Shown one piece after another: positions 5,745-29,959 of a DNA stretch of 64,000 bases; the first letter of the stretch is position 1; the number at the start of each line of letters is the position of its first letter. The stretch covers positions 356,315 to 420,314 of the forward strand of contig CAJNOJ010000072.1 of the NCBI GenBank assembly GCA_905250025.1, read 5' to 3'. The notes below the pieces were generated by a model. That model did not search any database. It was given only the letters and a program-made list of their open reading frames with translations, and was not told where the DNA came from. A program made the position numbers and the translations under genes. This stretch comes from Adineta ricciae (Eukaryota; Rotifera; Eurotatoria; Adinetida; Adinetidae).

Positions 5745-7353
5745 TCACTGATTGATCGATGTCATTTGTTGCATTAACGGGTCTTCTTTCTGATGACCAC
5801 CTCGTCGACGGCGTTCTTTTCTAGTTGCTCGTTTCGCTAAACACTCCAAAATACCAATGATGAGAATAATTAGAAGTATAGCTGCTACCATAATAACCAC
5901 TTTACCATGACGAATAGCAAGATGAACTAGTCTTAATTTACCAATTGTAGCATCATCTATATTCACTTCTTGGTCAATCCATACTAACGGTATCATTCTT
6001 CGAACTCCACGACGTTTTGTTGGCGTAAGTTCTGATCCGTATTCTGATTGTTTCATCGGATCAATAATTGCATCAATATTCAATTGAATACGATGGTGTG
6101 CTCGAAGAGGTGTACCAGAATAAGGTTCAAAATAAATCAATGCTTCATGTTGATCACGAGTCGGTGTAAAACCTTCGATGTTCAGATTTTCCATTGTTTC
6201 GTTCGAAGCTCCATAGAAATGTGGTTTCGATAGAAAGACAGTATTGTCTGGTAATGTAGCTGATATACATTTGGAAACATCAAGTTTATCAAGCTCTGGA
6301 CATGTATTTATATCACTGATATTTGTACATTGATCAAAATCAATAAATTTAATTACATATTCATGAACATCGATACCACTAAACATTGTAAGAACTCTAT
6401 TGAATTTAACAGTAATTGGACGACAAAAATCTGCTTGAAAAATATGCATAACTGGTTTATCAAAAAGCATCGGTACGAATGTAAGACCATCGTATATCGT
6501 CAGTGGGTATTTGTCGGGTGAAGAAAATGAAAACGGAACATTTTCACTGGCAAATGAAAGTACCTGACCTTTTTCCATCAGACCTAAAAAGAAGAAAGAT
6601 CTACTACAAATTGTGCCATAGATCAACAAGAACAATTTCTGCTTTTCTCGAATGAAAAGAACGTGCTGAATTACCTGATCTGATTGTAAAATTATACGAT
6701 CGGCTACCATTGTATCGGTAGATAAATCCAGACTTAGCAGTGTTGGGTCCAGTCATCTTTTCTCGGACAGTTTCGAACAATGGTGAAGTAAAACCTTCTA
6801 ATTGTTCAATCGCATTTCCGTAATTGAAAGCGTTATTTCCACCCAAGTCAAAGAATGAACTTGCTGGTCTTGATTCGAATTGTGTTCGAAAAATGGCTCG
6901 AAGCAAATCAACAAATACACCTGTATCGTTGACAGCGGATGGTTCAAATTTGGTTGAATGACGATTGAACAAACGATAGATCGAATAACTCAATGCTTTA
7001 TTATCATCCGACCATCGAACATCCTTTTTCGTGGCAAATAAATGATAATCATAGGCGCGTGTTTCTTTCAATTGTATTGTTGTCGACGATGGATCGGTAA
7101 CAATTTCCATTGCATTACTTATATTGAAAAGATGATAACCACGAGTTATTGTCGTTGGCGGACTGAGCCATGTTTCAAAACCTTGACTATTTGGCTTTAA
7201 TTCTACTATTTTTAAAACCTGACCAATGATAATTGGTTTTAAGTTAACACATAAATAGATTGCAGGAGCAAGGATAGCTATAGCAACGATCACTTCTATA
7301 AGGATTCGTTTGGTTAATTTCTTATTTCGTTGCGTATTCGACGCGTTCGTCAT
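5745..7353 (-). CDS. CD36/LIMP-2/SR-B family scavenger receptor, copy 1
   Basis: Two exons (7353-6675 and 6583-5745, 91-bp intron, phase 1) give 505 residues, normal for the CD36 family. These proteins are double-pass membrane glycoproteins that bind lipids, lipoproteins or lysosomal cargo. An N-terminal membrane segment (IEVIVAIAILAPAIYL) is followed by a large ectodomain with the family pattern: FFDLGG, LFETVREKM, SGFIYRYNGS, FHIFQADFCRP-like cysteine region, FEPYSGTPL and VWIDQEV. A C-terminal membrane segment (VVIMVAAILLIILIIG) precedes a basic cytosolic tail. Several N-x-S/T sites are present. I chose the ATG at 7353 by alignment with copy 2; an in-frame upstream ATG (7473) would add a hydrophobic leader not shared by the paralogue. 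It is a tandem paralogue of the gene at 8101-9682. Confidence 0.9.
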
Positions 7354-8100
7354 TTTGTACTTTGTATTATTAAAGTTCTCGTTCTTTTCTTGATAAATAG
7401 ATGATAATGGTGATAGTGGTAGCAGCGAATATGTGCTCTTTGTAGGAAGAACGAAAAAGGAGAAAAAATACAAATTTGTTAAACACTGATAGTGGATGAT
7501 GATTGCGTCTTTTTTGTGGTAGACTACAGCTGGTCATAACTGAAGATACAGTACTGCTTATCATATGAAAAGGAACGAAAAATATTTCATTCGTTCTCCT
7601 TCTTTTCAAACCATAAAATTCAAACTAGAATATGGTTGTTCGTCAATACTTACTTTCGATTAGACAAAAAAGCTTTTGTATATAATAGTTGAGGAAATAA
7701 AGAATCACATTTGCATTCGTTCTGTTCGATTGAAACATATGTTTCAGGCAAGGAACACTCCTCACACTTGTATTTACCAAACACATGAAATCGATTGTCT
7801 AATTATTACTACCCATTGTACATATTTGATCGGATGCATCATTCGAACATGTCAGCGGGCTGTAATGAATAGTCCAAAAAATTCGATGTAGGACATGAAA
7901 CTGGCTAGGAGATGTTTGAAAAGTTTCGGTGAGTATATGAAAAGTAGAATTTGAGTGAGAATGTATTTGTTCGATTTATTTCACACGAAAAAAGATAAAA
8001 TGAATTCGTATGATAGAAAAAAAAAGAATAACGATCAAACTAACAACTAGAAAATGAAGACGTATTTTGGAAAAACACATTTCGGTTCAATTGAGGAGCT
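7354..8100. other. Spacer between tandem CD36-family genes
   Basis: No gene seen. The region should hold the promoter of copy 1 and the 3' flank of copy 2; small frames here have no recognisable features. Confidence 0.5.
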
Positions 8101-9682
8101 TTAATGATAGATTAGAGTATCAGCCTTGACATAACCACTGTGTTTATTTCGATTGTTTCTGTTGCATAATCGCGGAACTAATTCCATAACAAGAATAAAA
8201 CAAATGGATAATACAATCGCTAATCCAATAACAATTCGCTGTCCGTTATTCATAATAATCATGGCTTTCTGAAGATCTTTGACTTTGCTTTCATAGAGTT
8301 TTATATCCTGATCGATCCAAAATACGGGTATTAAACGTACGACACCTTTGCGTTTTTTTATTGCTGTCCACTTAGCTCCATCCTCTTCTTTTCTGGCTGG
8401 ATCAATGCTCGCTGCAACATTCAACTGCATCCGAAATGAAGCTTTCAACGGCGTACCAGAGTAAGGCTCAAAATAAACAACTGAATCATGTGCATCTGCA
8501 GATGGTTGAAAACCTTCGATATTCATTTCTTGAATTGTCTCGTTTTTACTTCCATAAAAATGCGCTTTGGACAGAAAGATCGTGTCCTCTGGCAAAGATG
8601 TTGAAATACATTTTGAAACATCAAGTTTCTGGACTTCTTCGCACGTACTTGTATCATTTGGGTTAGAACAATTGTTAACGTTAATAAATTTGACTCGATA
8701 CTCGAATGCCGGTAGTCCAAAACGTAAATTGACGGTTTTCGAATACTGAAGAAGAACTGGACTGCAAAAATCTGAGTGGAAGATGTTCAGTACGGGCTTA
8801 TCAAAAAGCATTGTTGGATATGTAACGCTATCATAAATTGGAAATGAATAATCGTGTGAAGTAGTTTCAAATGCAACGAGATCGCTTGAAAATGATTTCA
8901 TTTGACCTTTTTTATCCAAATCTAAAGCAAAAATATCGGAGTACTGGAAACAACTAGAATAGAAGCGAGTACATCATACCTGTGTCTATCGACACACTGT
9001 ATAATCGACTACCATTTTGTCGATAGATAAAACCTGACTTGTCCGTGTTTGGTCCTACCATTTTCTCTCGAACAGTGTCAAACAAAGACGAAGTATAGCC
9101 TTCTAGTAATTCTATTGGTTTTCCTTCAGGAAAGGGATTTTCACCACCAAGATCAAAAAATGATTGTGCTGGTTTAGCTTTTTCAAATTGTGTTCGAAAA
9201 ATAGCCCGTACTAAGTCAATAAATGCACCAGTATCATTAAGAGACGATTCTTTAAATCGTTCGGGATCACGCGTAATCAGTCGAGAAACTTCATAATCAA
9301 GTTTAGTATTGTTGTCAGACCATTGAGTAATGTTTTTGATGGTTTTGATTTTGTATGTGTAAGCCGGTGTGTCTCGAACATGTATAGTCGTATCAGATGG
9401 ATGAAGAGTAACATTTTCTGCATTTGTGACATTGAATAGATAGTAACTTCGAGTTGTATCGACTGGTGGATCGAGCCAACTTTGTAAACCTTCTGTATCG
9501 GGTTGGAGTGTTACTTTACCGAAAATTCGTGGTTTAATCATATCTTTCAGAAGACTCCCTACGGGTACAAAAATTGTTGGTAGGATGAGTACAGCGCACA
9601 CAATAACTTCGATAATCAATCTTCTGATTCTTCGTTTCCGCTGTTCATCGGGTGTGTATCGCTGATAACCGTTGGATGGCAT
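8101..9682 (-). CDS. CD36/LIMP-2/SR-B family scavenger receptor, copy 2
   Basis: Two exons (9682-8980 and 8921-8101, 58-bp intron) give 507 residues. The intron sits at the same place as in copy 1 (after SGFIYRxNGSRxY...), which supports local duplication. N-terminal membrane segment LIIEVIVCAVLILPTIFV, ectodomain with LFDTVREKMVGPNT, CSNPNDTSTC-type cysteines, FEPYSGTPL and FWIDQDI, then a second membrane segment (IVIGLAIVLSICFILVM) and a short tail. Copy 1 and copy 2 are clearly diverged, so the duplication is not recent. The start is the first ATG; the frame also extends to a TTG at 9688. Confidence 0.9.
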
Positions 9683-10326
9683 TGTCAAGGTTTAGTTGAA
9701 ACAATCGGTACTAAATGCATCGTTGTTCTTCTCCTTTTATACACGATAATCTATTTTCTTACACGTAAAAGAAAAAAATTTATCATCCGACTGCACAGAT
9801 ACATCGTTTGCTGCCAGCTGGTGTGTGTACATGTTTGAGAATCTATTTTTGTATCACATTCTTTCACTACAAGCAGAATTTTAATTCGAATGAAGAACGA
9901 ATGTGCATGTGCACACAGAACAAGTTTCATGTTATCGAATTCCGAAAGAAATCTTGTTGAATGAAATGCTGTTCTGTAAATCTTTTCTTCACCGTTCGCT
10001 AGTCACGAATGATCAAAATATTTTCTCCAGAGTTTGTTCTTGCCGAATAAATGTTTCGCTCGTTATTTCAAGAATGTCAGAAAAAAACAATTCAAGGAAG
10101 GTATTTCCAGATGTACATCAAAAGAACTAGCCAGAACAGGGAATATTTTCAGTTAAATTGCTTTTCTGTGCCGTGCCCCTCACGATTTTTCTTCTGCGAC
10201 ATATGAGTAGATAATAGCAGCCAGTACTTTGAATTCTGATGGACGTCTTTTTTTAGTTTTTCAATGAGAAAACAAACAAAAAATGTTCTAGTTATTATAA
10301 ACAACGAAATAACTTGTTGTTGGGTC
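9683..10326. other. Intergenic region
   Basis: No gene recognised. It contains the 5' flank of CD36 copy 2 and the 3' flank of the uS9m gene. Confidence 0.5.
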
Positions 10327-13300
10327 TTAACGTTTTCGGCTAAAATACAAAGATTGAAAACAGGACATGGTTTAGAATGAAAAAATAAACATACAATTTG
10401 TATTTGCGTCGTGCGTTTCTCTTTCCTGGTTGTTTACGTTCTTTACGACGCGCATCATCCGTTAATAGGCCAGCTAGAAGAGAAATTTTCTCACAATTAC
10501 TTACACGAGAAGACTCGTCTTACCCAATCGAAGGTATTCGACTTCTTTCGACGAAATAAATGAACAAAGTGCTTTAGAAATGGCTAATCGCGTAGCAATA
10601 GCTTGTGCTGTAAATCCAACTCCATCGTAGTTAACATCAATATCGAATAGATTAACACGATCAACAACTTTAAACGGATAGAGAAGTTGATCTCTAAAAT
10701 AAATAAAAAATCTTGATAAATAGAAATCGAACGATATTCGACAAACCGGTGTATAATTCGCGTAAAATAAAGAATATCATGAACATTTGATTTGACACTT
10801 AATGCTTTGATTGTTACTTTTCCTGTTCCTTCTCGTAGAGTAACTGTTGCTGTACACCATTTGTGTCTCGCTATAATGAAGAACAAAAAAAGAAATTCTC
10901 CTTCAACTTCGAATGATTGTTGAACATAAGATTAACTCGATGATGGTTATGTGTACTCAAACACGATGCAATCATCTATTTAAACAATAACAACAACCGA
11001 TCACATTTTTATTTCTTATCAAATGTCATGTTCATTGTTCATTTCATCTCCTATCAATGTGGGTAACTTTCATCTATCTTTTATATTTTATACCATTTCT
11101 CAGTTCAGCGAAATATAATCGGATATGTTATTTTACTAATTGGGGTGCTCATCGGTCGATGAAAGATGCTCGCCTTTATCCAGAAGACGTTCCACCCGAT
11201 CTCTGCACACATATCTTATATGCATTTGCCAATCTCAATGGAATATCTTTACAGCCACAGTTAGCTAATGACATTAACGTTTATCAAGGAGAGCAGGTTT
11301 CCCTTTTGATTGATGTAATGAAATATTGATAATTGTTCGTTTTCTTTATTTAAGCCGTTATATCCACGTATTATGAAATTGAAGGAGAAGAATCCCGAGT
11401 TGAAAATTTTGATCTCGTGTGGTGGATGGGGAAAAGCGGGCGAATTCGATTCGTTAGTCGGATCAGAATCAGCACGGTAAGATATTCTGATGGAATTGAA
11501 TGATGACCATCGATTGAGAACAATATTTGTAGAGAAGCGTTTAGTAAAAACGTGATTGCATTCTGTCGTCAACATGGCTTTGATGGAATTGATTTAGATT
11601 GGGAATTTCCATCAGCTGATCATCGTGAACGTTTTGGATTATTAACGAAAGTTAGTGAAGAACGGTTTGATTTCCAACCAGTTGAGCATTTCTTTGTAGA
11701 CAATGCGTAAAACATTTGAGAAGGAGTCGAAAAAGTCGAAGAAAGATCGATTGTTGATTAGTCTAGCAGTGGCCGCAGGAAAATACTTAATCACACAAGG
11801 TTATGATGTACCCGTTCTATGCAAGTAAGATGAAAACCGTCATTCGACGTATACCTTTTTGTCGTTATATAGAAACGTTGATATGATAAATGTGATGACG
11901 TATGATCTGTACGGGTCATGGCATAATAAAATCGGTCATCATAGTGCGTTATTCCATCGGCCTGGTGAAACTGGTATGGAACGAGAATTGAATACAGTTG
12001 AGTTGAAGTACTTTGTCTAGTGATGAATGGTGCAAATCGATTTTTTTAGAATAATTCAATGTATAACTGGGTCGAAGCGGGTTGTGCACGTGAACGATTG
12101 AATATCGGTATTCCAGGTTACGGTCGTGCGTTTACCGCTGATGGAAAGGATCCATTAAAAGCATTTGGGCAAAGCGGCGGTGGATCAGGTTCGGTTTCTT
12201 CACCTTATCTAGGTGAAAGTGGTTTGTTGGCATACTTCGAGGTAGAAAAATCTCCTTCATCATCGCCAATGTATAATATAAGAATTTAGATATGTAAAAA
12301 AGAGTTAAAAGAAGGTTTCAAACGCTACTGGCATAAACAGCATCAAATTCCAATTAGTTTCAAAGATGGAACATGGATTGGCTACGATGATCCAGACAGT
12401 GTTCGAAACAAGGTAAGATTTCACTCGTACGAATCACTCAAAGAATCTATATTTAACTATTGTTCATAGTGTAAATACGTTAAACGTGAAGGGTTTGGTG
12501 GCGCGATGGTGTGGACATTAGATATGGACGATTTCAACGGGCAATTTTGTCGGACAAGTAAAAAACAAAGCGTACACAAATTCCCATTGATCAGTGCAAT
12601 CAAAGAAGAATTGGAAATTGATGACAAAACAACGACATTATCGATAGTGACAACAACAGCAACAGCAGTATCAAATGGAACGCATCTCTTCAACGAGTTG
12701 TTCGACAATGAGTGGAATCAAATAACTGACAATATTTCGTTCGCATCGAAACTCCCGCAATTGAATGTAGGTTTTCTTGTTGTTTTACTCACCACTAGCT
12801 ATTTGATAAGGTCGACCATCGACATCGTATCGTAACTAGATGAATTCAATATAGATGAAATTGTTCATATTGTAGTTTTTTCTCTTACCGGTTCAATTTC
12901 TTGTTTACTTATTGAATCGGCTAACTTTGTTCGAAATGAATTGATATATTCCTTCATTGTATACGCTAATGGATGTTTTACTAGACGATTTAAACAAATA
13001 ATTAATGTTTTGTACTAAAATAAAAACAACTATTCATTCATCTGCTTTTCAACAACGAATCTCCACTCACTTGTTCATCATCGAGCTTTTCCAAAAATCG
13101 CTGCTCGAACACTTCTTTCTTTTCCCATTGAGTATAGTTAAATTCACTGAAATTTTATTCGAAAGAATGAACTTTGTTCTTATCAAGGGGAATACCAACT
13201 CGTTGAGACTGTAATCTGGTTCTCGGCCTGATGCGAACATTGCAACTTCCGCTTTCTTCAATTCTTCCATTTTATTAGCGACGGCCTGAAAATAATCATC

Positions 13301-14156
13301 GAAAATCAGACGGGTTTCAAAACATAAGAGTGTGTCTTTACATGTAAAACATCGTAATAATTGTGTTTGGCTGTGTAATATAGAAAATGATATGGTCGAC
13401 CAGCTTTATCGAATTGAACAGCTAAACAAAAGGCAAGGTAGAGGTTAGTCGAGGACATCTGAACAAAACTGACCTTTTTCTTTTGGATACATTTCTTCTG
13501 GTGGCTGCAAAAATGAGAATAAGATGTGGAAATGACAATGAAAGCAATATTTACTCTCATCTTTGGTCTTGCACGTTCATCGAGTAGACCGGATGGAAGA
13601 AGATAATTCACTGCTTCCTAGAAAAAGACTAACTAGAAAAGATTCGCTCGATTTGAGAGAAACCTACATCGATTTTGTCTTGAGTGAAACTTTCTGGATC
13701 TTCACCCATGATCTTAGCAAGATGTCTTCGTCCAATTTCGTATTCATGAATCTTTTCATCCAAAACTTTTTCTAAGAAAAAGAACGAAAACATGATTCAT
13801 GAGCAGAAATCTTCATTCGTACGTTTTTCTCTGGATTTCGTAAGGTAGTTTTTCATTGCTTGACTAATCATTTCTGCACGGTTACTTGTCGCCTGTTCAA
13901 TAGTATCGATAGCTTCTTCATCAGCTATTGCCTGAGCGATGTTGCGATTATGTAGAAAACTTTCGCTTTCATCTGAGGTTTCGGAACCAACTGTCCCAGA
14001 ATTGGACGTCGAACTTTGAAATCGATGCTAGTGAAAAAGAGAGAATCAAACCGTCATTGTAAAGAGAAAAAGCCGAAGAGATTATTCAGTTACCGGAATC
14101 GTCGATCGAACGAATACAGTTTGTAATACCGCTCGAGAAACAATTCTCGAGAGCAT
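10327..14156 (-). CDS. MRPS9: Mitochondrial small-subunit ribosomal protein uS9m
   Basis: Fourteen exons join in phase to 420 residues (human about 396): 14156-14094, 14027-13823, 13771-13668, 13617-13555, 13504-13474, 13421-13342, 13285-13200, 13146-13071, 13014-12889, 12835-12793, 10870-10747, 10693-10524, 10473-10395, 10339-10327. The first exon is a basic, hydroxylated presequence ([12 protein letters not shown]) suited to mitochondrial import. The middle contains [14 protein letters not shown] and [13 protein letters not shown], typical of MRPS9. The C-terminal third is the S9 fold with [44 protein letters not shown] and the basic end RRKYKFRKR that reaches the decoding site. Most introns are 47-77 bp, but the one at 12792-10871 is 1,922 bp and holds a chitinase gene on the other strand. 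The last exon is only 13 nt. Confidence 0.9.
11057..12835 (+). CDS. GH18 chitinase / chitinase-like protein, nested in the MRPS9 intron
   Basis: Eight exons (11057-11296, 11355-11476, 11533-11650, 11700-11824, 11873-11996, 12050-12241, 12290-12412, 12470-12835) give 469 residues with all phases agreeing. The protein starts with a signal peptide ([18 protein letters not shown]), followed by the GH18 barrel. ICYFTNWG is strand 1, SCGGWG strand 3, and [11 protein letters not shown] strand 4 carries the full DxxDxDWE catalytic motif. [18 protein letters not shown] and [11 protein letters not shown] follow. The acid pair and Trp indicate an active chitin hydrolase in the secretory pathway. A Thr-rich stretch and a hydrophobic C-terminus ([14 protein letters not shown]) could be a GPI signal. 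No chitin-binding domain is visible. The final 43 nt lie opposite an MRPS9 exon. An alternative last splice at GTAGGT near 12769 would shorten the tail. Confidence 0.87.
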
Positions 14157-14632: not shown

Positions 14633-16521
14633 TTAGTAAAAACTTCCAGGACCATTATAATCTGAATCATGATGTCCACCTCCTCCATACGAATAATCAT
14701 TATCATAACCACCATGGTCGCCGTGATCATGAGTCGAATGATGGCCGCCGTCATAGTTATCAGACGGTAAATATGTATCTGGGTGAGAACCATGCCCATG
14801 TTGATCAGATGGCGGACAAATGTCTATATGATGGTCATGGTCATGATGATGGTGGTCGTGATCATTATGATGATGATGATGATGATGATGATCGTCATCA
14901 TGGCCTGTGGATGGTCCACAGTGTTGATCACCGTGGTCATGATGATGATGGTGGTCGTCGTGATCATCACAGTCCGTGGATGGCCAACAATGTTGATCGT
15001 CCATGTGGTGAGGTGCACATGGACAATCATGATTATCAGGATGATGACAGTGGCCAGGACAAGTACATTGATCCAGATAAGGATTATGGTCATCGACATG
15101 TGAGCCAGATGGACCAGAAGACCATATGTAATGACCTGGAGGACGTGTTGAGTATGACGTGTTAAATTTTGTTGGTTTCAAGCCGCCACCACCCGTAGTA
15201 CGTGGAGGAGGTGGCTTCGATGGTTTTGAAGGAGTATTCCTAACCGGTGGAGGAGGTTGCGGAGGGTTGGTAGTTTTTGTTTTCTTATCTTCATTGCGCG
15301 ATTGAAGATATGCAACAATGTCACGTTCGAGCATTTCCATACGTTGAACCTCAATTTGTCCCAAATGTGATTTATCTGCTAAACGAATAAGGCCAGTATC
15401 ATTATTTTTCTCTAAATCATTAATTGGTGAAAACTGGTGTCTTTCAAGAATTGCCCTAAGATAAAAAAAATAATCACATTCATTCTCGATCTTTTCTACA
15501 AACAACTCTATGATATCAAAGGATTTCTTAACGTTTGCTCTTACTCACCATCGATCAATATAGTTTCGATCTTTTCTTTCACCATGCCAATGATGATAGA
15601 TATTGACAGGCACGTAACCAACATTTGCACCATTTCGAGCTTGCTCTGCTACTCGTTGCCCCCATGCAAGTGCTAGTTGTCGGTAATCGTGATGTAAACC
15701 CGGCCGAAGTGTTTCCTCAATTCGACCAATTAACGCAAAAGCAAAATGTAAATCACCGGATCCAATAATACAAAAATCGATTAAACCTCCAATTGCATTC
15801 ATCGCAGAGCGACGCATCGCCCAAGCATAACCAGGATGTGGATACCACTCGTCATATCGTCGTGGATCAATTGGTTTATTCTTTCGAATAGAATATCCCA
15901 ATGAATAATCGCGACGCAAAACATCACTTTTGCCACCGGGCCCAAGAAAATATGACAATTCAAATATTTGTACAATGGAATATCGCTGAAGTTCAGCAAT
16001 AGTTCGGTGTGGCCAATCTAGACTCTAGAAAAAGATCAATTTCTCTACTGTTTCTGTTTTATCATTGTACGCACTTCAAATTCAATATCTGCATCGACCC
16101 ATGCAATGTATTCAAAATGTTGCGGTAAATATTTAAGTGCAATATTGATCAAGTTTTCTTTCATCCAGAGGATAGACGGAGCTGTGACTTGTATATGCCG
16201 CCAATCACCATTTTTAGTTAGTTCAAACTGTTGACTCGACAGGCCGAATCGTTCGGCTGACTCGAATATACACTCCACAGTAAATAATGTCACACCGGAT
16301 TGAGCCATATGCGCTTGAAATTTATTGTAGTGATTATAACGAGATTTATATTTCATCGGATTGAAAATCACAGCAATCACAGCAAAACTCGATAGATCAT
16401 ATTTGCGTACAGAGATGGACGAATCAGATTTCGTCGGTGCCAATCTTGATGGATGCAAGGTGTCTGATTTCGCTGGCGTTGAACCACGCCGATGATGGTG
16501 TTTAGACGAGTGCGGTCCCAT
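14633..16521 (-). CDS. Glycosyltransferase-like protein (phage/giant-virus/bacterial type) with His/Asp-rich tail
   Basis: Three exons (16521-16075, 16024-15549, 15455-14633) give 581 residues with consistent phase. Residues about 45-340 match, from memory, a GT-A-like family found in bacteria, tailed phages and giant viruses. Its landmarks are FNPMKYKSRYNHY, SGVTLFTVE, WMKENLINIAL, YIAWVDADIEFE (DxD metal motif), YPHPGYAWAMRR, GLIDFCIIGSGDLHFA and VNIYHHWHGERKDRNYIDRW. The reaction is unknown; a metal-dependent sugar transfer is inferred from the DxD. No signal peptide is seen. A proline-rich linker (about 375-405) leads to a tail of about 150 residues made of His, Asp, Gly and a few Cys, ending in GPGSFY. 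Viral and bacterial relatives lack such a tail as far as I recall. The tail could bind metal ions or be a low-complexity expansion from GAT/CAT codons. Confidence 0.75.
14860..14960. repeat. GAT/CAT trinucleotide-rich tract inside the glycosyltransferase-like tail
   Basis: A run of GAT units at about 14869-14890 with imperfect GATCATGATG-type units on both sides codes, on the minus strand, for the His/Asp-rich tail. Because GAT and ATC are near-complementary, several other frames stay open here; these are shadows. Confidence 0.7.
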
Positions 16522-26717: not shown

Positions 26718-29700
26718 TTAAAGCTTCTGTTCTATATCAGTTGCGTTCTTCCTATATTCCAACAGATACGGATGTGTCGCAGGTAGTTTCTCCTGAGCTA
26801 TTTGAACAGCTCTTTCGGCATGTTCATATGCTGCATTGTACTCTTTCATTTCCTTGTAAACTTCCGCCAAATGATGTTGCGCGTCTGCTATATACGGGTG
26901 CGTTGCTCGTAGACACTTTTCCCGAATTTCTAGTGCTTTTCCATAAAACTCCAATGCTCTTGTGTATTCTTTCATCGCCAAGTATGTTCCTCCCAAATAC
27001 TCATAAGTCCAAGCAATCGAAACCGGATCACACGTAACATTCTCCTGAATATCTCTTGCTTTCTCAAGAAAACCCAAACCTGACTTTATGTCTCCACTTA
27101 ATCTATGAACGTCACCCACATTAGCGTATGTTATTCCCATAAACGGATGCCGCTCCGAGAATATATTCCGATCCATTTCCAGAGTTTTTTCGAAAAACAT
27201 CAACGCTTTTGAGTAATCCCTCAAATAGCGATAAATTCTGCCCAAGCAACTGTACACTGAACTAAACGCAGGATGAGTTTGTGGGAGAGATTGTACGCAG
27301 ATCTTCTCTGCTTTCTCGCAGTATTCCAGTGCTTTTGAGTACTCTCCGATGTGTGAATACACTCCACCTATGTTGTTGTAACTTGTGGCCAATGAAGGAT
27401 GAGTTGGTGGGAGAGATTGTTCATACATCTTATGTCCTTTCTCGTGGTATTCCAGTGCTTTTGAGTACTCTCCCATGTGTGAATAGACTCGACCGATGTT
27501 GCCGTAACTTGTGGCCAATGAAGGATGAGTTGGTGGGAGAGATTGTGCGTAGATCTTGTGTGCTTTCTCGTAGTATTCCAGTGCTTTTGAGTACTCTCCC
27601 ATGTGTGAATAGACTCCACCGATGTTGCCGTAACTTGTGGCCAAATCAGGATGAGTTGGTGGGAGAGATTGTGCGTAGATCTTGTGTGCTTTCTCGTAGT
27701 GTTCCAGTGCTTTTAAGTACTCACCCATGTGTGAATAAACTCGACCGATGTTGTTGTAACTTGTGGCCAGATCAGGATGAGTTGGTGGGAGAGATTGTGC
27801 GTAGATCTTGTGTGCTTTCTCGTAGTATTCCAGTGCTTTTGAGTACTCACCCATGTGTGAATAAACTCGACCGATGTTGCTGTAGCTTGTGGCCAAATCA
27901 GGATGAGTTGGTGGGAGAGATTGTGCGTAGATCTTGTGTGCTTTCTCGTAGTATTCCAGTGCTTTTGAGTACTCACCCATGTGTGAATAAACTCGACCGA
28001 TGTTGCTGTAGCTTGTGGCCAAATCAGGATGAGTTGGTGGGAGAGATTGTGCGTAGATCTTGTGTGCTTTCTCGTAGTATTCCAGTGCTTTTGAGTACTC
28101 ACCCATGTGTGAATAAACTCGACCGATGTTGCCGTAACTTGTGGCCAGATCAGGATGAGTTGGTGGGAGAGATTGTGCGTAGATCTTGTGTGCTTTCTCG
28201 TAGTATTCCAGTGCTTTTGAGTACTCACCCATGTCTGAATAAACTCCACCGATGTTGCTGTAGCTTGTGGCCAAATCAGAATGAGTTGGTGGGAGAGATT
28301 GTTTGCTGATCTCCAGATCTTTCTCGTAGTATTCCAGTGCTTTTGAGTACTCTCCCATGTCTGAATACACTCGACCGAGCTGATGATTGAGAAAAGCGAT
28401 TTCATTGAAATCGTCTTCTTCTACGTTCATTAAAAGTGTCCGATAGAGAGCTTCCGCTTGGTGGAAGTCACCAGTTTGAAGAAATAGTGCACCTAAAGTA
28501 TGCCAACCAGTCGATCTAGAAATTTTGTCACGGATATGTTTTGTGAGATGTGCTAGTTTCGGATCATTGTTCTGTGTGAGAACCAATTCAACTTCAAACA
28601 ACTGAAGTTCTTTGTGGATCTGGTATGATTGGCCTATACGGAAAATGGAGTTCATGGAAAAGAGAATCTCTTTCTCTCGCTCCCCAAAGTAACCTTGTTT
28701 ATCGATGAGTGCAAATGGCGTAGAGGAGCACTTTGGATCGATTGTGATTTGGAAAAGCACCCCAACGTGATCTGATTTTCGTGTGGCTGCAGCAGCAAAC
28801 CGATAGGAAACGGCACGGTCTTGACTTGTCGATAAAAAACTGTTGAATGAGAAGAGCCCTCCAGATGATGCTTGTAATTGATGAAAAGTGTTCGTTAGTA
28901 AAGCCTGGCCGCGATATAACTGAAATTTTTCTGGGAACAGATGTTTCTGTTGAGAATGAAGTCGTTGAAGATGAAGATGAAGATGTCGAATGAAAACACC
29001 CATGACGAGCATCGTGGTGGCATCAAAGGTACGTAATGCTTGATTAAGTATGTGATATACAAAGCATTCTCGTGTATACCACCGGATAGAAGTTTCAGCC
29101 GTGTATTTGTGCTCGAATTCGTTGATGATGTCTAATTCTTTTTTGTTATCCGTATAAAGTTTACGACATATTTCAGTAAGTTTAGGAATTTCATTTGCAT
29201 CATAGTGTATGTCTAAAACTGCTTCTTTGAATAAGGTTGTATACATGAACGTAGGATCTAGCTGATCAGGGTTCTGAGCATTTGTTATAGCGATTGGTGT
29301 TGAATCTCGGTCACACAAATGAATGTCTTGTTGCAAAACTCCACAGAGAGATCGAATATCTGTGAAAACACCTTTGATCTTTTGCCAATCCTTAGCCCAT
29401 TGATCATGTTTTGATTTATTGCCGCACAATATATAGATGGAATCGATTTGTGCCATGTGATGAATGAAAGGTACGCACTGTGATCCGAGAGTTCCTGATG
29501 TAATCATAAAAATGTTTTCATGTGTTGATGCAGTAATGAATTCGACGCATTCATTGAGATCTGTGTATGTTTTGATTGTGTTTACAAAGTGATTTAATGT
29601 CGTAAGAAAACGTTGGCAATCTTGATTTGATTTATCAATAGATGAGTCAAGCCAAATCAAAAAGAAATTCTGAGCGATGTCCATGCGCATCGGTATCGAT

Positions 29701-29959
29701 GGTATTCGTTGTGAGCGTGCATATCTTGCTGCTAAAAACAATAGAAATGATAGACGTTATCATATCAGTAGATGAATGGATTCAAGAATAATCAGGCTTT
29801 ATTTATACCTTGATTTGATGTCGATAGTGGCAACGATTGTTCTGTAGTTGTAATACATTCATGGAAGTTCGCTGTTGCTTGTCTTAATGAGGATGATTTT
29901 GATGTAGGTTTTACCGTTGTGTTCTTTTCGGATCGACTTGATGTTTTTTTCTTGTCCAT
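26718..29959 (-). CDS. Arginine ADP-ribosyltransferase with TPR (kinesin-light-chain-like) array
   Basis: Two exons (29959-29809 and 29731-26718, phase 1) give 1,054 residues. The first about 50 residues are Ser/Thr-rich. Residues about 60-190 form a conserved-looking alpha/beta domain (FFLIWLDSS, FMITSGTLGS, IDSIYILCGN) of unknown role that often precedes ART domains in rotifer proteins. The ART domain follows with the R-S-E signature: R in FQLYRGQAL, STS in SFLSTSQDRA, ExE in GEREKEILF. These residues suggest transfer of ADP-ribose from NAD to arginine. About 13-14 TPR units of 42 residues make up the C-terminal half, the central ones nearly identical (NIGRVYSHMGEYSKALEYYEK). There is no signal peptide, so a cytosolic place is likely. 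The start is the ATG after a TTG-initiated extension. TATATAAA lies about 70 bp upstream. Confidence 0.88.
27385..28390. repeat. Tandem 126-bp repeats encoding TPR units
   Basis: About eight head-to-tail units of 126 bp (42 codons) with very high nucleotide identity, including at third codon positions, inside the ART-TPR gene. The flanking TPR units are diverged. The pattern suggests recent unit duplication or gene-conversion homogenisation. It keeps other frames open on both strands, which are not genes. Confidence 0.9.

Follow-up and report, generated by a model that had tools for sequence, protein, structure and literature searches.

The gene for the mitochondrial ribosomal protein uS9m (MRPS9) of the bdelloid rotifer Adineta ricciae shares its locus with a gene for a GH18 chitinase, which lies on the opposite strand within the only long intron of MRPS9 and whose last codons appear to extend over an MRPS9 exon. 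The reading preferred here, to which we assign a probability of roughly 0.7, is that these are two ordinary genes sharing a locus, that the chitinase ends unspliced over exon 10 of MRPS9, and that it was nested before the doubling of the bdelloid genome. According to this reading, MRPS9 encodes uS9m, and its intron 10 holds a complete opposite-strand chitinase gene, presumably transcribed on its own, the product of which would be secreted or held at the cell surface. Chitinase coding would have no 3′ spacer and no further splice, but would continue across the bases opposite the MRPS9 5′ splice site and exon 10; its stop codon would lie opposite the first codon of that exon, and the host sequence dictates where the chitinase can end. 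The chitinase would have been in place before the genome doubled. Of the two blocks that resulted, the one on another contig (C101) would have lost MRPS9 and kept the chitinase, and the one in the 64,000-nucleotide stretch of DNA analysed here (the window) would have kept both.

The host gene, on the minus strand (10327..14156), was rebuilt exon by exon and comprises 14 exons, joined by GT-AG introns into a complete open frame of 420 amino acids with the C terminus RRKYKFRKR. In the gene model, exons 1–5 are at 14094-14156, 13823-14027, 13668-13771, 13555-13617 and 13474-13504; exons 6–10 at 13342-13421, 13200-13285, 13071-13146, 12889-13014 and 12793-12835; and exons 11–14 at 10747-10870, 10524-10693, 10395-10473 and 10327-10339. 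Twelve of the 13 introns are 50–66 bp in length; intron 10 alone is long (10871..12792, minus strand, 1,922 bp, GTGAGT...TTATAG). Residues 80–420 of the predicted protein align with residues 59–396 of mammalian uS9m in the structure 3jd5, which we take to be bovine (E 5.9e-79), and Pfam PF00380 matches the C-terminal part (E 2.4e-15). Homology over the length of the animal mitochondrial protein, together with the S9 domain, identifies the predicted gene as MRPS9. The 43 nt of exon 10 supply 14 codons and one further base; the matching stretch of 3jd5 is LQYDEQGMAFSTG, where EPLQYD faces EPLRYD of the exon, and this alignment shows the exon to be real. As 43 is not divisible by three, skipping exon 10 would shift the reading frame. 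The assembly that was searched (130.5 Mb in 1,033 contigs) yielded one copy of MRPS9: the eight matches among the best-scoring candidates all corresponded to exons of the gene in the window.

The initial annotation had described an eight-exon GH18 chitinase on the plus strand within this 1,922-bp intron, the only long one of the minus-strand MRPS9, and the gene models confirm both coordinates and strands. The chitinase (11057..12835) has exons 1–4 at 11057-11296, 11355-11476, 11533-11650 and 11700-11824 and exons 5–8 at 11873-11996, 12050-12241, 12290-12412 and 12470-12835, encoding 469 amino acids. Positions 11057-12792 lie inside MRPS9 intron 10, on the opposite strand, and the last 43 bases lie beyond it. 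Pfam PF00704 was matched from position 2 to position 317 of its 317 profile positions, i.e., over a complete GH18 domain (E 1.9e-86; the query, a 471-aa reading of the chitinase, carried two residues too many where exons 5 and 6 join). The best matches of the 469-aa protein among solved structures were 5wup (‘Chitinase’) and entries for chitotriosidase-1, and the likeness to solved chitinases stops near residue 397. The translation contains DGIDLDWE, which we take to be an instance of the GH18 chitinase motif DxxDxDxE. With a complete domain and this motif, the nested gene is predicted to encode a GH18 chitinase. Its layout consists of a hydrophobic N terminus (judged by eye to be a putative signal peptide), the GH18 domain, a tail rich in Ser and Thr, and a hydrophobic C-terminal end. 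From the coordinates, 186 bp separate MRPS9 exon 11 from the chitinase ATG (10871..11056, plus strand), and this gap would be the whole of the intronic space for a putative chitinase promoter and 5′ UTR. The GH18 family is sizeable in this genome, as a query of 80 residues taken from exon 1 of the chitinase had 17 matches, the gene in the window included.

It is highly improbable that this arrangement is an artefact of assembly or annotation, with the chitinase not truly inside MRPS9 or with one of the two genes dead. The sole MRPS9 found has exons flanking the chitinase on both sides, on a single contig of 420 kb; the segment 12460-13020 maps at full length to a single place in the assembly, with a further 70-base match (80%) on contig C34; both reading frames are intact, and within the GH18 part of the chitinase nonsynonymous change (pN) is much lower than synonymous change (pS).

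The predicted antisense coding overlap (12793..12835, both strands) sets MRPS9 exon 10 against the last 14 chitinase codons (stop included) plus one base. The last 43 coding bases of the chitinase had been said to be the complement of the 43-nt MRPS9 exon, in register, and the codon-by-codon listing agrees: over 12793-12835, every chitinase codon, reverse-complemented, gives one MRPS9 codon. The pairing proposed for the chitinase stop also holds, with TAA at 12833-12835 facing TTA, the first codon of exon 10. Chitinase codons likewise run through the bases opposite the MRPS9 5′ splice site (GTGAGT, 12787..12792, minus strand).

In this register, the codons able to face a stop codon are two of the six for Leu, one of the six for Ser and none for any other amino acid. 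This corresponds to antisense frame 0 as outlined in PMC11266595, where stops occur only opposite TTA, CTA and TCA, i.e., opposite Leu and Ser. MRPS9 exon 10 contains one Leu, as its first codon, and one Ser, as its last full codon (AGT). Because only Leu and Ser can face stops, a chitinase frame that enters exon 10 runs to the first codon of the exon, unless the Ser codon is TCA. Thus, the exact position of the stop needs no special cause, as the coincidence is explained by the host sequence, and, for the same reason, an open antisense frame of 43 nt is not surprising and is no evidence of selection. What goes beyond chance is the reality of both genes, not the openness of the overlap. The Leu opposite the chitinase stop is not strictly required by the host protein, since a second mammalian uS9m (7pnt) has Val at this position.

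Both strands are predicted to be coding over 12793-12835, MRPS9 by homology and the chitinase by continuity of its frame, in which no convincing further splice was found. The initial annotation had regarded both frames as supported; this stands for MRPS9, by homology to 3jd5, and for the chitinase over these 43 bases it comes down to continuity, the likeness to its duplicate on C101 ending at 12751. The frame is continuous with that of the last GH18 exon, and likeness to the C101 duplicate supports it as far as the Lys codon at 12749-12751. The C-terminal tail that follows (12752..12832, plus strand, 27 residues) gave no confident alignment to the duplicate: read unspliced, it matched the C101 tail no better than shuffled tails did (p 0.23). 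Paralogues offered little guidance for the tail, since among nine last-exon matches (window gene included) the one on C101 extended to residue 108 of the 121-residue query and none of the other seven went beyond residue 73.

The chitinase could instead be spliced once more near its end, with removal of 12767-12875, 12767-12854 or 12811-12875, and the overlap with exon 10 would then be absent or shorter. Candidate introns were scored with matrices from the 28 introns of three gene models, 27 of which are 46–66 bp. In the best candidate, 12767-12875, GTAGGT at 12767 scores 6.2 as a donor and the site at 12875 scores 5.0 as an acceptor; the sum of 11.2 falls in the middle of the range of leave-one-out sums for the 28 modelled introns (2.6–19.1). 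However, the candidates of 109 bp (12767-12875) and 88 bp are longer than any of the 27 short introns modelled, and 11.2 was also attained by 12 of 69 control pieces inside long open frames and by 118 of 500 sequences resampled at first order. The third candidate, 12811-12875, is of normal length (65 bp) and scores 8.6, a value which, at lengths of 40–70 bp, was reached in 23 of the 69 control pieces and in 203 of the 500 resamples. The controls were half-overlapping pieces of 264 nt from eight long open frames taken as intron-free, the ends of which may enter introns. A score of 8.6 was attained by 19 of 19 pieces that contained a real short intron; these introns had been in the training set. 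A minority class of longer introns is reported in four bdelloid genomes (PMC5916493).

The tail that would result from removal of the 109 bp ends hydrophobically, is slightly more hydrophobic than the unspliced tail and scores slightly higher against the C101 tail (15.5 vs 12.0), neither score being significant; against shuffled tails, the three spliced readings gave p 0.17 (the 109-bp version), 0.17 and 0.40. A GPI anchor signal consists of small residues, a spacer and a hydrophobic run at the very C-terminal end of the protein. Compared by eye, the C101 tail fits such a signal, and the C101 protein ends with its hydrophobic run; the unspliced window tail has eight residues, two of them charged, after its run. 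Against a further splice, the C101 duplicate reads unspliced up to its stop, and the 109-bp version would not escape the host but would overlap MRPS9 exon 9 instead. An additional intron is therefore considered unlikely; an unspliced chitinase end is the likelier of the two.

Assuming the unspliced end, the chitinase transcript may stop soon after its coding region. The initial annotation had proposed complementarity extending into the chitinase 3′ UTR, with the next AATAAA near 13019. This signal is present, at 13019-13024, but AATATA, read from the sequence on the plus strand at 12849..12854, is nearer and is a possible poly(A) signal of the chitinase. In the C101 duplicate, too, an AATATA lies no more than about 25 bases from the stop, and the nearest AATAAA is about 180 bases on; this lends weak support to a near transcript end in the window chitinase. 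A transcript ending at this AATATA would end inside the 53-bp intron 9 of MRPS9, and the complementarity between the mature mRNAs would therefore be about 43 nt. The two transcription units are convergent and might interfere with each other; for the overlap itself, transcriptional interference and double-stranded RNA are hypothetical consequences.

The nearest relative of the window chitinase lies on contig C101, at 98.9–100.6 kb. Of 457 aligned residues, the two proteins have 302 in common, and all seven introns of the window gene have a counterpart at the same column and in the same phase in the duplicate, which has one more. On one side of the chitinase, the window from 30.7 to 59.6 kb (30708-59642) is colinear, in inverted orientation, with C101 from 96.9 to 76.2 kb, the matching pieces having 27–84% protein identity (hits over 45 bits). 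On the other side, three places on the window's own contig (C72), at 336.4–356.1 kb, correspond to C101 at 112.8–102.7 kb (hits over 40 bits). Both chitinases sit between these colinear anchors in matching orientation. Since anchors, orientation, introns and sequence identity agree, the chitinases are taken to be duplicates of the block doubling, copied as DNA. With a colinear block on another contig and strong divergence, they are best described as a bdelloid ohnolog pair. Over 378 GH18 codons, the pair has pN 0.166 and pS 0.661, corresponding to dN 0.19 and a dS of about 1.6, which is near saturation; over the 61 codons of the tail, pN is 0.43 and pS 0.622. These values indicate that both copies have been kept by selection on the enzyme part, with the tail loosely constrained. 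The C101 chitinase is convergent with plus-strand frames that, by eye, resemble SCP-type secreted proteins, the stops being about 120 bp apart (L009:1278-2887).

The conservation of the nesting, raised as a point by the initial annotation, has thus a divided outcome: a colinear duplicate of the chitinase does exist, but it is not nested, there being no MRPS9 around it, and no second MRPS9 appeared among the best-scoring candidates from the assembly. As the C101 duplicate lies between the same neighbours, in the same orientation and with matching introns, the chitinase was already in this interval before the block doubled. The nesting is probably as old as the block doubling, with MRPS9 lost later from the other copy; the simplest history takes the nested state as ancestral and has MRPS9 disappear from the C101 side. 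In a different history, possible but distinctly less probable, the non-nested state on C101 would be ancestral, and a local rearrangement within the same interval would have brought the chitinase into the MRPS9 intron only after the doubling. This would agree with a C101 chitinase that lacks both MRPS9 and a detectable remnant of it (a tblastn search beside the C101 chitinase gave nothing above noise, best E 1.2), but it requires an intact, intron-bearing gene to have moved into an intron within the same interval. Moreover, plain loss is common there: MRPS9 and an importin-like gene (Pfam label) in the same interval matched only themselves in the genome, and a CD36-like gene has only its tandem neighbour (50% identical) and further matches of 32–47% on three other contigs. 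The glycosyltransferase-like gene adjoining MRPS9 (labelled by eye, no Pfam match) has five relatives (54–57%) on C166, C143 and C140 and none on C101. Because these relatives are on three other contigs and not on C101, the history of the interval must include more than simple loss.

The short introns, the diverged colinear blocks and the base composition fit a bdelloid genome. The rotifer spliced leader, used as a query with G as its first base, was found at 41 places in the assembly, each with one mismatch (reversed control, 0). All 41 copies read TGCTTATTACAACTTACCAAGAG, with T as the first base in place of that G; they are on contigs C2, C6, C8, C43, C77, C79, C99 and C146, and many form inverted pairs about 153 bp apart. 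The GC content of the window, per 4 kb, is 34–38%; that of A. ricciae is given as 35.6% (PMC5916493). Elsewhere in the window, two adjoining CD36-family genes (5748-9691, minus strand) are about 50% identical where compared, and an open frame rich in His, Asp and Gly (14636-15544, minus strand) has long His runs and no Pfam match. A frame of 1,012 codons (26721-29756, minus strand) has about eleven near-identical TPR repeats, where Pfam assigns 11 stretches to TPR_12 and also lists a nephrocystin-3 TPR domain. Trypsin-like genes (labelled by eye) form a cluster near 38–43 kb, within the duplicated block.

In the preferred reading, the locus combines a nested gene, the coding end of which is read from the antisense of the host's exon and splice site, with a colinear duplicate that is free of the host, and so offers a natural comparison with and without the host. 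It can be asked how a host exon constrains the end of a nested protein, and whether that end is released when the host is lost. Furthermore, the locus may be a case in which a nested gene persisted when, following genome doubling, one copy of its host was lost. A more tentative proposal, which we consider doubtful, is that the membrane-anchor signal of the chitinase has been written partly in the antisense of the MRPS9 exon and 5′ splice site since before the bdelloid doubling. If so, the C101 copy would show how the protein end changes when there is no host exon, and the cost of the overlap would be measurable.

Nested intronic genes include the Gart and cuticle-protein pair of Drosophila. 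In one ctenophore, 2,357 nested genes were found in 1,654 hosts by the Hormiphora survey, which compared 1,058 genomes (PMC8527503). Since the survey, as described there, tolerated 15% overlap with host exons at either end, the MRPS9/chitinase case would be counted in it. As in the nested intronic genes of animals treated in that survey, a whole protein-coding gene lies within one host intron, here on the opposite strand; unlike those genes, as they are presented there, the chitinase has a coding end that crosses the host 5′ splice site and the next exon (PMC8527503). The human Pou5f1/Tcf19 locus, as summarised in PMC8493703, similarly has exon sequence common to two opposite-strand genes; there, the sharing is between splice variants and covers two exons and an intron, whereas here it covers one host exon, at the coding 3′ end of the nested gene. 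With antisense open reading frames in frame 0 (PMC11266595), the locus has in common an antisense overlap with codons in register; unlike a de novo gene, the chitinase is an old gene with its last codons in antisense. As in the ohnologous blocks of bdelloids (PMC5916493), the two blocks are colinear and strongly diverged, the dS of about 1.6 for the GH18 part, from a simpler method, comparing with a mean ohnolog KS of 1.27 given for Adineta ricciae; a difference is that, here, nesting is confined to one of the two chitinases. Judged by titles and the openings of abstracts in the nested- and overlapping-gene literature searched, no paper on this MRPS9/chitinase locus was found. Thus, the kind of arrangement is already known, as nested intronic genes are widespread in animals, exon sharing between opposite strands has been described in human and the rules that govern antisense frames have been established; this locus is special for a coding end that lies over a host splice site and exon, and for a duplicate of the same gene that is not nested.
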